A stretch of DNA of 64,000 bases, from NCBI RefSeq assembly GCF_900046455.1, contig NZ_FCOT01000013.1:248001-312000 (forward strand). Reading direction: 5' to 3'. Positions 16,413-49,057 of the stretch are shown in pieces; position 1 is the stretch's first letter; each line of letters starts with the position of its first letter. The notes under the pieces are model-generated. The model was not told where the DNA came from. It saw only the letters and a program-made list of their open reading frames with translations, and ran no database searches. The position numbers and the translations under genes were made by a program. Origin of the DNA: Cellulomonas timonensis. GTDB taxonomy: Bacteria; Actinomycetota; Actinomycetes; Actinomycetales; Cellulomonadaceae.

Positions 16413-18008
16413 GTGGGCACCATCGGCGCAGAGGTGGTGGCGACCTCCGAGTTCGGCGTGTTCGACCTCGTGGCCGACCGCGCCTTCTGGGAGTTCCAGC
16501 ATGGCGACCTGCCCGCGGCGCTGCTGCTGTGCGCCCACGGGATCGCGCTCGCCGAGCTGGCGGGCGATGAGGCGACGGTCAGGTACCTGCTGTTCACGCG
16601 TGGGCAGTGCCTGATCGAGCTGGACGAGGTCGACGCCGCCGTCGCCTGCGCCGATGACCTGCTGGCCCGCACGGAGCACGACGAGGAGCCGTACTGGCAG
16701 GCGAAGGCACTGGCTGTCCGGGCCCTGGCCCGTATCCGGGCCGGTGCGGCGATCGAGGTCATGGACCTGTTGGCCCGCGTGTGGAGCCTGGTGGGCGTGC
16801 CCGACGGCCGCCGGTACAACCAGGCGTCGGCCGTCGCGGTGCTGGCGAACGGCCTGCGGACCGCCGAGCTCTACGAGCAGAGCCATGCGCTGCTGCGCCG
16901 CCTGCACCGCCTGGTGCCGTCGGGCTTCGACGCCAACGTGGTGGCCCAGTCGACGCGGAACCTCGCCGAGTGGGGCGCGCGGCTGCTGGTCCTCGGCTAT
17001 GACCGCGAGGCGTCGGCGACGTTCGCCCAGCTCGCGTCACGGGTGCTCCTGCTGCGCCGGCTGGCCGAGGGCGACGGCGGCTCCGGGCCCGTGGACCATG
17101 CGGTCTCCGCAGACGCCGCGGAGATCGTCGCGATGGTCGGACTGGGTGAGCACCGGAGGGCGCTGGCCCTCGCCGAACGCGCCGGGCCGGCCCTCGAGCA
17201 GTACCGGGGGCGGCCCGAGTGGGTGGCCGCGATGTGCGCGATCGGCCTGGCCCTGACGACGGTGGGGCGCTACGCCGAGGCGGAGGCCGCTGTCGCGAGG
17301 GTCCGTCCCGAGGTCGAGACAAGGGACCGGGAGGTGTGGCTGACAGCCGTCGACGCGGTGCTCCTGGAGGCGGCGCGTGGACGGCACGGCGACCACCCCG
17401 CCGCAGTGCAGGCCACTGTGATGTTCCGGCGGGTCGCGCGCCGCACCTGGAGTGACCGCGAGCAGCGCTTCGAGGCCCTGCTCAGCAAGGTCCGCATCCA
17501 GGAGCTGGTCGAGCAGAGCGCCCGTGCCACTGCCCTGAGCGCGCTCGACGAGCTCACCGGGATCGGCAACCGGCGCGCCATCCAGGAGTTCGTCGCCGGT
17601 GGCGAGGGGCCGATGGCCGGCGTCTTCATCGATGTCGACGACTTCAAGTGCGTCAACGACCAGCACTCCTACGTGATCGGCGATGCGGTGCTGGTGCAGA
17701 TCGCGGAGTTGCTGAGCGGGCTCGCCCGGGACGAGGACCTGGTGGCGCGATTCGGCGGCGACGAGTTCGTGATCTTGCCGCCGCCCGGCGCGGCAATGAG
17801 CGCCGCGCGGCTGGAGCGGCTGGGGCGCCGCATCCTGGCGGGCGCGCACGCCGCGAACTGGGACGCGATCGCGCCAGGGCTCACGGTGACCCTCTCGGTG
17901 GGCGTCGCGCAGGTGGGCAGCGGCGACGACCTGTTCGACGGCCTGGGCCAGGCCGTGCGGGAGGCCAAGCGTGGCGGACGTGACCAGGTGGTCGTGCTCG
18001 GCGGATAA
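16413..18008 (+). CDS. Diguanylate cyclase: TPR-like region plus GGDEF domain
   Basis: A protein of 531 residues without membrane segments. The first 350 residues are helical and TPR-like (repeated Ala/Leu/Tyr patterns, e.g. [21 protein letters not shown]). The C-terminal GGDEF domain starts at [11 protein letters not shown]. The active-site motif GGDEF is at 448-452 and the inhibitory I-site R439-D442 (RDED) lies exactly five residues before it, so both synthesis of c-di-GMP from GTP and product inhibition should be intact. GTG 16413 is chosen because GGGGAGA sits just upstream; longer in-frame starts run into leuA. A c-di-GMP riboswitch lies at about 48.1 kb in this window. Confidence 0.9.
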
Positions 18009-47653: not shown

Positions 47654-47727
47654 GGGCCAGTAGCTCAGCCGGTCAGAGCAGCGGACTCATAATCCGTCGG
47701 TCGTGGGTTCAAGCCCCACCTGGCCCA
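47654..47727 (+). tRNA. tRNA with CAU anticodon (elongator Met or Ile2)
   Basis: A 74-base cloverleaf: acceptor GGGCCAG/CTGGCCC with A73, D arm GCTCAGCCGGTCAGAGC, anticodon stem CGGAC/GTCCG type with loop containing CAT, T loop TTCAAGC. The GGGCC acceptor start resembles isoleucine tRNAs, so it may be the Ile2 tRNA whose C34 is changed to lysidine by TilS; sequence alone does not settle it. CCA is not encoded. Confidence 0.93.
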
Positions 47728-47833: not shown

Positions 47834-48015
47834 CGCCTGCCGTGGACATCTCGCCACCACGTCCCGCTCGCGCCTGGACGTTGCGCCGAGCATAGAGGGG
47901 ACTTTGGTCCCGCGCATCGGGGCGTCGCCGATGTCTGCATTCCTCCTGTCTTCGCGCGGAGGACGCCATTACAGACGGATGTTCAGGACACCGCCCGATT
48001 TCACCCGGTGGTTTC

Positions 48016-48044
48016 TTGCACGCTTGTCCAGTTTCCTGCATAGT
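48016..48044 (+). promoter_or_regulatory. Promoter of the riboswitch-bldC transcript
   Basis: -35 TTGCAC (48016-48021), 17-bp spacer, -10 CATAGT (48039-48044). Transcription would start near 48051, directly at the 5' edge of the riboswitch. Confidence 0.6.
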
Positions 48045-48051
48045 TCAGGGC

Positions 48052-48129
48052 GTCAGCGAGAACGGCAAACCCGCCGCGAGGTGGGGACGCAAAGCCACGG
48101 GGCCTACACGGTTAGCCGAGCTACCGAAC
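48052..48129 (+). promoter_or_regulatory. Class I cyclic-di-GMP riboswitch (GEMM-I)
   Basis: The conserved core is nearly complete. GGCAAAC (48064-48070) opens the first helix; a hairpin of six pairs (48070-48075 with 48080-48085) is capped by the GNRA loop GCGA; then GGGACGCAAAGCC (48084-48096) matches the family consensus exactly; GGGGCCTA follows; and a second hairpin, CGGTTAGC/GCTACCG around CGA (48109-48126), has the AGCC...TACCGA receptor-arm pattern. It lies in the 5' leader of the bldC-type gene, ending a few bases before its SD (AGGAG at 48133-48137). No terminator lies between, so control of translation is the likely mode. Confidence 0.9.
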
Positions 48130-48145
48130 GACAGGAGTCAGAGTC

Positions 48146-48376
48146 ATGGCCATTACCACCCCCAACCGCAACGAGTCCGCCACGCAGATGCCGGGTGCGC
48201 TGCTCACGCCCGGTGAGGTGGCAGTCCTGTTCCGCGTCGACCCGAAGACGGTCACGCGCTGGGCCCAGGCGGGCAAGCTCTCGGCAGTGCGGACCCTCGG
48301 TGGGCACCGTCGCTTCCACGAGGCCGAGGTCCGCGAGCTGCTGACGGGCGTCCCGCAGCAGCGCACCGAGGGCTGA
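48146..48376 (+). CDS. bldC: BldC-type small MerR-like DNA-binding regulator
   Basis: A protein of 76 residues consisting of one MerR-type winged helix-turn-helix: LLTPGEVAVLFRVDPKTVTR, WAQAGKLSAVRTLGGHRRFHEAEVRELL, GVPQQRTEG. This matches Streptomyces BldC closely, which binds direct repeats cooperatively and controls the timing of development. It lacks the dimerisation helix and effector domain of classical MerR proteins. The organism group does not sporulate, so the role here differs. ATG 48146 follows an AGGAG SD, and the leader holds a c-di-GMP riboswitch. Confidence 0.92.
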   Translation: MAITTPNRNESATQMPGALLTPGEVAVLFRVDPKTVTRWAQAGKLSAVRTLGGHRRFHEAEVRELLTGVPQQRTEG

Positions 48377-48392
48377 TTCCACAGCACACGTC

Positions 48393-48428
48393 GACGAAGG
48401 CCCCGGGGATGAACCCGGGGCCTTCGTC
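48393..48428. terminator. Bidirectional terminator between bldC and the TetR gene
   Basis: A 15-bp perfect stem (GACGAAGGCCCCGGG against CCCGGGGCCTTCGTC) with a six-base loop, between convergent genes. Confidence 0.85.
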
Positions 48429-48451
48429 ATGTGCGTGGTGGGTGGGCGTGA

Positions 48452-49057
48452 TCAGTACGCGTCGAGCACCGTCGCGAGGACCGACTGCCGCACGTCGGCC
48501 ACGGGCCGGTGCGGCTGGAATGCGAGCCATTCGAGGCCGGTGACGAGCGTGGCGCCGAAGATCGCCGCGGCCGTCAGACTCGGGTCCAGGTCGGGGCGGC
48601 TCGCGGCGACGGCGTCGGCGAAGATGCCCATGGACTCCTCGCGCACCAGTCGGATCGACTCCTGCCAGTCGCGCCCGGTGCGGAAGATCTCGGCGACCAT
48701 GAGCTTCGCGAAGTCGGGGTGCGTCCGCACCTGGTCGAGCAGCTCGGACACGAGGGCCTCGATCGCCGCACGGCCCTCGAGGCCGTCGGCGGCGGCCCGC
48801 AGGGCGGTCGTGAGGCGGCCCACGCCCTCGACGATCACGGCCTCGAACAGCGCCGTCTTCGAGCCGAAGTTGTAGTAAATGCTGCCCTTGGCCACTCCGG
48901 CCTCCGACGCGATGTCGTCGACAGACGTCGCCGAGAAGCCACGGTCGGCGATGAGCGAGACGGCCGCGTCCACGATGACGGCACGGGTCCCGGCCCCGCG
49001 GTCGCCGCGTCCGGATCGACGCGGGGGTGCTGCGGGGCCGGGAGGCGTGCTGGTCAT
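48452..49057 (-). CDS. TetR-family transcriptional regulator
   Basis: A protein of 201 residues from ATG 49057. The helix-turn-helix region is AAVSLIADRGFSATSVDDIASEAGVAKGSIYYNFGSKTALFEAV. The C-terminal ligand domain is helical. It is the last gene of an operon, 13 bases after the YhgE/Pip gene, and a 14-bp palindrome at the head of that operon is its likely operator. The ligand is unknown, probably a membrane-active or lipophilic compound. Confidence 0.92.
   Translation of the reverse strand: MTSTPPGPAAPPRRSGRGDRGAGTRAVIVDAAVSLIADRGFSATSVDDIASEAGVAKGSIYYNFGSKTALFEAVIVEGVGRLTTALRAAADGLEGRAAIEALVSELLDQVRTHPDFAKLMVAEIFRTGRDWQESIRLVREESMGIFADAVAASRPDLDPSLTAAAIFGATLVTGLEWLAFQPHRPVADVRQSVLATVLDAY

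Follow-up and report, generated by a model that had tools for sequence, protein, structure and literature searches.

Developmental and life-style regulators in Actinobacteria are steered by c-di-GMP, as described for BldD-(c-di-GMP)4 and RsiG-(c-di-GMP)2-WhiG (PMC7288161, PMC8325347). In both of these systems, a protein senses c-di-GMP. The locus described here, located in a 64,000-nucleotide stretch of Cellulomonas timonensis DNA (the window), would share with them the control of a developmental or life-style regulator by c-di-GMP, whereas its predicted sensor is the leader of an mRNA. To our knowledge, little is known about the action of c-di-GMP in non-sporulating actinobacteria.

Among RNA sensors, the class I c-di-GMP riboswitches of RF01051 (c-di-GMP-I, or GEMM-I), exemplified by Vc2 and Vc1 of Vibrio cholerae, have in common with the window RNA the Rfam match, the GNRA loop, the core GGGACGCAAAGCC, and the residues G20, A47, and C92. 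The window RNA differs from these examples in its target, a BldC-family regulator, and in its very short expression platform, in which the Shine-Dalgarno sequence abuts helix P1. The c-di-GMP-I-GGC family (RF03167) is the best-scoring Rfam family for the window aptamer, which is unlike it in having A, where the consensus has G, at the equivalent of A47. The protein, in turn, is to be compared with BldC of Streptomyces (NF033787; PDB entries 6ama and 6amk, which we take to be this protein). The two share a small MerR-type DNA-binding domain, but the window protein is a paralogue, with WAQAGKLSAVRTLGGHRRF where 6ama has WAKAGKLTSIRTLGGHRRY, and its gene has an aptamer in front.

The initial annotation of this locus knew of no description of such an arrangement, and no report of a c-di-GMP riboswitch before bldC, nor any paper treating c-di-GMP riboswitches in Streptomyces and Cellulomonas together, was found in the open-access literature searched, a search that left subscription papers mostly outside. 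Within the open literature, the BldC-family target and its conservation in this lineage thus appear to be new, while the riboswitch class is known. Judging from sequence, and with a probability of roughly 0.78, we propose that the c-di-GMP-bound aptamer in the leader would change the translation of the BldC paralogue via helix P1, which lies next to the Shine-Dalgarno sequence. The features of the locus are collected in Table 1.

Table 1. Positions of the features of the aptamer-bldC locus and of related loci (window coordinates unless a locus or contig is named).
Feature	Position	Strand	Basis or remark
Promoter-like region, TTGCAC - 17 nt - CATAGT	48016-48044 (TTGCAC 48016-48021; CATAGT 48039-48044)	+	Reading of the sequence and conservation
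Conserved TGTCC(A/G)GTTT in promoter spacer	48025-48034	+	
5′ strand of outer P1 (GUC), pairing with GAC 48130-48132	48052-48054	+	RNAalifold on 63 distinct leaders
c-di-GMP class I (GEMM-I) riboswitch aptamer	48055-48129	+	Matches to RF03167 (48055-48129) and RF01051 (48054-48128; C13:296054-296128)
G20 equivalent, ligand contact	48064	+	G in 61/63 leaders
A47 equivalent, ligand contact	48091	+	A in 63/63 leaders; RF03167 consensus is G
C92 equivalent, ligand contact	48124	+	C in 63/63 leaders
3′ strand of outer P1 (GAC), immediately before the Shine-Dalgarno sequence	48130-48132	+	
Shine-Dalgarno sequence, AGGAG	48133-48137	+	ATG at 48146
Gene for a BldC-family regulator of 76 aa; its more canonical BldC paralogue is at G000:C12:880248-880391	48146-48376	+	NF033787
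Hairpin of 15 bp downstream of the gene, lacking a T-run; may end a single-gene transcript	48393-48428	+	By eye; absent from the terminator scan list
Example of a small-ORF locus	L002:1590-1766 (G000:C11, aptamer 337446-337519)		16 further loci
Loci of the flagellar-promoter subgroup	L251, L257, L271, L272, L275, L276, L279, L285, L287		

The Aptamer and Its Predicted Ligand Contacts

The window aptamer was matched by RF03167 with 64.2 bits (E 1.4e-14; gathering score 59; cmscan), and by RF01051 with 60.4 bits, against a gathering score of 35. The initial annotation had described a GEMM-I aptamer with an exact core and a GNRA-capped hairpin, and had proposed a check against RF01051; the match proved significant, and both the core GGGGACGCAAAGCC and a GCGA tetraloop on P2 were found, the loop being GNRA in all 63 distinct leaders. 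In the Vc2 aptamer, the ligand is contacted by G20, A47, and C92 (PMC4744006). The equivalents of all three residues are present in the window. Their numbering was transferred to the window through our own alignment to Vc2, and we take the “GGC” of c-di-GMP-I-GGC to name the bases at the three contact positions (20, 47, and 92). The G that RF03167 has at the A47-equivalent position is absent from the window aptamer, which has A there. Judged by its contact residues, the window RNA is therefore an ordinary c-di-GMP aptamer, despite the higher score of the GGC model, because G20, A47, and C92 are all present. A plain RF03167 variant with a changed ligand was rejected on the presence of A47.

The BldC Paralogue behind the Aptamer

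The protein encoded directly behind the aptamer matches NF033787 (HTH_BldC) with 100.4-100.5 bits, against a curated cut-off of 77, and also matches Pfam HTH_17 and MerR. It aligns with the PDB chains 6ama (E 4.2e-27, residues 17-75) and 6amk (E 1.9e-26, residues 18-75), both titled “Putative DNA-binding protein”, and is 100% identical over 76 aa to a protein of Cellulomonas cellasea ET82. A second BldC gene in the same genome scores 106.7 bits, has no aptamer core upstream, and, as far as these scores and a tree of few columns can tell, is the closest counterpart of Streptomyces BldC in the genome, rather than the window gene. The same division recurs throughout the genus: all seven genomes have one gene with the aptamer and one higher-scoring, more canonical BldC without an aptamer core upstream, which identifies the window gene as a paralogue. 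The candidate in which canonical BldC itself is under the switch in Cellulomonas was ruled out by this higher-scoring gene without an aptamer core.

These results modify two earlier statements. The claim that the aptamer lies directly before bldC holds insofar as a BldC-family gene follows it (100.4 bits for NF033787, against 77), but this gene is a paralogue, and not bldC proper. The further claim, that c-di-GMP acts on bldC itself and thereby joins two arms of the Bld network, is too strong, because canonical BldC genes without an aptamer core are present in all seven genomes of the genus. It comes closer in g9 (probably Actinotalea), since in six g9 genomes every BldC-family gene found has the aptamer.

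Conservation and Origin of the Pairing

RF03167 was matched at E ≤ 0.001 in 50 of 150 sampled genomes of the family, from 7 of 25 genera, and in 49 of these the match was over the cut-off. Within the 50 aptamer-positive genomes, 60 of 113 BldC-family genes have the aptamer, distributed over 49 genomes and six genera, with G027 as the exception. Aptamer-bearing and aptamer-less genes occur together in 43 genomes, and the six genomes in which every BldC-family gene found (E ≤ 1e-15) has the aptamer all belong to g9. The 113 genes comprise hits over the cut-off in the seven genus genomes and hits at E ≤ 1e-15 in the 43 others; L278 and L289, with no parsed motif, and L253, cut by a contig end, were counted as lacking the aptamer. 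Aptamers were counted from the RF03167 matches listed plus a motif search, and some of those counted score below the RF03167 gathering score. The match at L247, 61 nt upstream of its gene, has 51.5 bits, which is below that score. Comparison of leaders drew on 130 loci, which gave 70 leaders, two loci with a core but no parsed start, 56 without a core, and two without a motif; the 70 leaders include 63 distinct ones, two of which have a misplaced start (L105, L230).

Among loci from named Cellulomonas, Actinotalea, and related organisms, the aptamer was found in 15 of 17 (absent from L131 and L143), and the element was thus present in close relatives, where the initial annotation had suggested looking for it, both here and in 49 of the 50 aptamer-positive genomes. 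The other 63 BldC loci of named organisms, mostly Streptomyces, all lacked the core motif, and the 18 of them scanned with Rfam gave no aptamer. The Rfam scan covered 35 of the 80 named-organism BldC loci, and the rest were searched by the core motif, which misses one known aptamer (L121). The 26 aptamer-negative family genomes examined (18 genera; part of 100 such genomes) have one high-scoring BldC each, with 103-108 bits, and two g23 genomes among them have extra BldC hits of 77-85 bits. RF01051 was matched in 31 of 297 genomes of the order and in 155 of 396 genomes of the phylum. Outside the family, none of the 51 aptamer loci examined had a BldC motif (the best match of each genome, with flanks of about 1.5 kb or less).

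The aptamer-bearing genes form one side of the best protein tree (112 distinct proteins, 60 columns). On this tree the aptamer label needs one change when L247 is treated as aptamer-bearing, and two when L247 is treated as aptamer-less, the latter compared with 37 in shuffles. The arrangement is consistent with a single origin of the aptamer-bearing BldC genes, but the support of the branch is negligible (10/0).

Promoters and Neighboring Genes

The promoter read earlier as TTGCAC, 17 bp, and CATAGT was found in place, and it is backed by conservation. A strict sigma-70 scan of 47900-48460 listed no promoter, and the promoter-like element takes its support from this conservation instead. Of 70 aptamer-bldC leaders, 54 have the pattern TTGC.{4,6}TG[TC]CC in front of the aptamer; the window has a single copy of it, at 48016. 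The 29-nt promoter pattern is matched without mismatches at this one site in the genome. The only other match of this pattern, with three mismatches (L351:1501-1529; G000:C9:172840-172868), lies before a surface-protein-like gene, the product of which ends in a sortase-like LAATGS and a membrane tail. About 330 nt upstream of the window aptamer lies a tRNA gene (47654-47727; 72.9 bits; anticodon loop CTCATAA), and tRNA genes occur within the same 8-kb locus in 10 of 15 aptamer-bearing named relatives. A GGDEF domain is encoded elsewhere in the window (17541-17987; 80.7 bits), and two genomes, G001 and G006, have a GGDEF match no more than 3 kb from the aptamer-bldC gene.

A subgroup of nine aptamer-bldC genes (eight from g9, one from g6) has a flagellar-looking promoter, TCAAG-n-TGTCCG-n-CCGAT(A/G), also written CTCAAG-n-CCGATA, of which a loose pattern matches eight. 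Above it stands TGTGA-n6-TCACA in eight of the nine genes, with TCACG in the ninth, a box that we read as CRP-like. The flagellar promoter consensus is given as TAAA / GCCGATAA (PMC8325347). Upstream sequences that look similar by eye precede two flagellin genes of the family, one of which is matched by the pattern. In G081, a flagellin-domain gene is found about 4 kb, and a stronger flagellin match 8 kb, from L279 and L285. Flagellin was found in 40 of the 50 aptamer-positive genomes and in 8 of the 26 aptamer-negative ones, a comparison confounded by kinship. A purely flagellar role is not claimed, because of this kinship and because ten aptamer-positive genomes gave no flagellin hit.

The aptamer also stands before other genes in the family. 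A second target that recurs is a set of small ORFs of 43-58 aa, which follow it in 17 of 50 aptamer rows (drawn from 55 loci with five repeats; three rows unparsed). Because these ORFs were selected for the motif W-[AS]-x-[ILMV]-A ... P-x-Q, its conservation among them reflects that choice. Two of them gave no match to Pfam or NCBIfam up to E 1. At L004, L006, L015, L016, L019, L025, L030, and L034, the aptamer precedes long ORFs with signal-peptide-like starts by eye, which perhaps encode secreted or surface proteins. By our own alignment, G20A occurs in a few aptamers: that of L275, before a BldC paralogue, and, by eye, those of L014 (the same place as L054) and L013, before a small ORF.

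Proposed Mode and Sign of Control

In the proposed mechanism, the transcript would begin just before the aptamer, which would bind c-di-GMP; binding would stabilize helix P1, the last base pair of which abuts the Shine-Dalgarno sequence of the BldC paralogue. The stabilized P1 would then alter translation, in a mode and with a sign that we infer, and the paralogue would pass the c-di-GMP level on to target genes, perhaps those for motility or the cell surface. The second messenger is likely made in this organism, because its genome has ten matches to the GGDEF (diguanylate cyclase) domain.

As described in the initial annotation, the Shine-Dalgarno sequence and the ATG follow at once behind the aptamer, only 16 nt separating the aptamer end from the ATG, and no terminator lies between aptamer and gene, a scan of 47900-48460 having found no terminator-like site. 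The distance from the end of P1 to the Shine-Dalgarno sequence is 0-2 nt in 56 of 63 leaders. Because P1 adjoins the Shine-Dalgarno sequence in this way, and no terminator-like site was found, control of translation is favored and likely. For outer P1, 52 of the 63 leaders have GUC/GAC, five UUG/CGA, and six another pair; the five UUG/CGA leaders, namely three from a single clade of g20 (probably Cellulomonas) and two from named Cellulomonas, provide most of the evidence for compensatory change in this part of the helix. Pairing of P1 continues toward the Shine-Dalgarno sequence slightly more than in permuted leaders (mean 1.24 vs. 0.95, with 21 of 5000 permutations as high), also when permuted within genera (mean 0.99, with 24 of 5000 reaching the observed value).

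Computed folds were searched for a secondary-structure ON/OFF switch in 60 leaders and the window, and no two folds with clearly different mean access to the Shine-Dalgarno sequence were found. Mean access is 0.43 with the aptamer fold enforced vs. 0.44 without it (60 of the 63 leaders), and stays at 0.81-0.83 in each fold of the window leader. When the Shine-Dalgarno sequence is paired in the free fold, it is most often with the 5′ P1 region (about 0.29 summed), compared with up to 0.07 for other leader bins. The earlier suggestion of translational control through Shine-Dalgarno access is thus plausible in its geometry and in the lack of a terminator, but the folds barely differ in that access. 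For the sign of control, we lean slightly toward repression at high c-di-GMP, because P1, once stabilized by the ligand, would press on the Shine-Dalgarno sequence or pair with part of it.

An ON switch is a less favored, though appreciable, possibility. Without ligand, the 5′ P1 strand GCGUC (48050-48054) would pair with the core GACGC (48086-48090) in an unproductive fold, and c-di-GMP would restore the aptamer and raise translation. In the window, this core pairing is favored over P1 by about 9 kcal/mol, so that the ligand would have to pay for P1, and the core-paired fold is the more stable one in 34 of the 54 leaders able to form it. Against this, core pairing does not lower mean Shine-Dalgarno access among these 54 leaders (0.48, vs. 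0.45 for the aptamer fold), 32 of which have the lower access in the aptamer fold, and in the free fold no leader region besides 5′ P1 pairs much with the Shine-Dalgarno sequence. Individual leaders do differ between the folds: for L268, L067, L273, and L226, the aptamer fold gives an access of 0.03-0.22, compared with 0.37-0.44 when the core is paired. Control at the level of transcription, by Rho or by early termination in the leader or gene, is quite unlikely: some class I riboswitches (Bc1) are reported to act on terminators, but the 16 nt behind the aptamer and the lack of any terminator-like site speak against it here, as does the preference for translational platforms reported for Actinomycetota (PMC12452182).

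About as improbable, or marginally less so, is a different ligand for the RNA, as a c-di-GMP-I-GGC variant with a changed preference. The RF03167 score exceeds that of RF01051, although the scores come from different models; position 20 is A in L275 and C in L234, and a G20A mutant reportedly binds cGAMP as well (PMC7288161). The window aptamer, however, has G20, A47, and C92, the latter two invariant across the 63 leaders, and lacks the RF03167 consensus G at 47. It is very improbable that the aptamer has no regulatory effect on the BldC paralogue, as a conserved relic or a chance match. Its role in regulation is predicted from sequence; 49 of the 50 aptamer-positive genomes have it in front of a BldC-family gene, with almost invariant contacts, and the E value of 1.4e-14, together with conservation, rules out a chance match. 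We retain control of the BldC paralogue by a c-di-GMP-bound aptamer as the preferred reading.

Implications for c-di-GMP Signaling

With a conserved aptamer before a duplicated BldC gene, both the RNA sensor and the regulator are specified, in a genus that is tractable, and the question of c-di-GMP action therefore becomes directly testable. More tentatively, BldC-type regulators in Cellulomonadaceae may form an RNA-gated c-di-GMP relay, in which a duplicated BldC lineage would have arisen with the aptamer, remained linked to it across six genera, and fed a motility or surface program, with a subgroup, mostly in g9, adding the flagellar-type promoter and the CRP-like box. If this were true, a single small regulator in that subgroup would receive input from cAMP, the flagellar sigma factor, and c-di-GMP. 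The pairing recurs across Cellulomonas and Actinotalea, and thus offers a testable c-di-GMP route in bacteria without sporulation.
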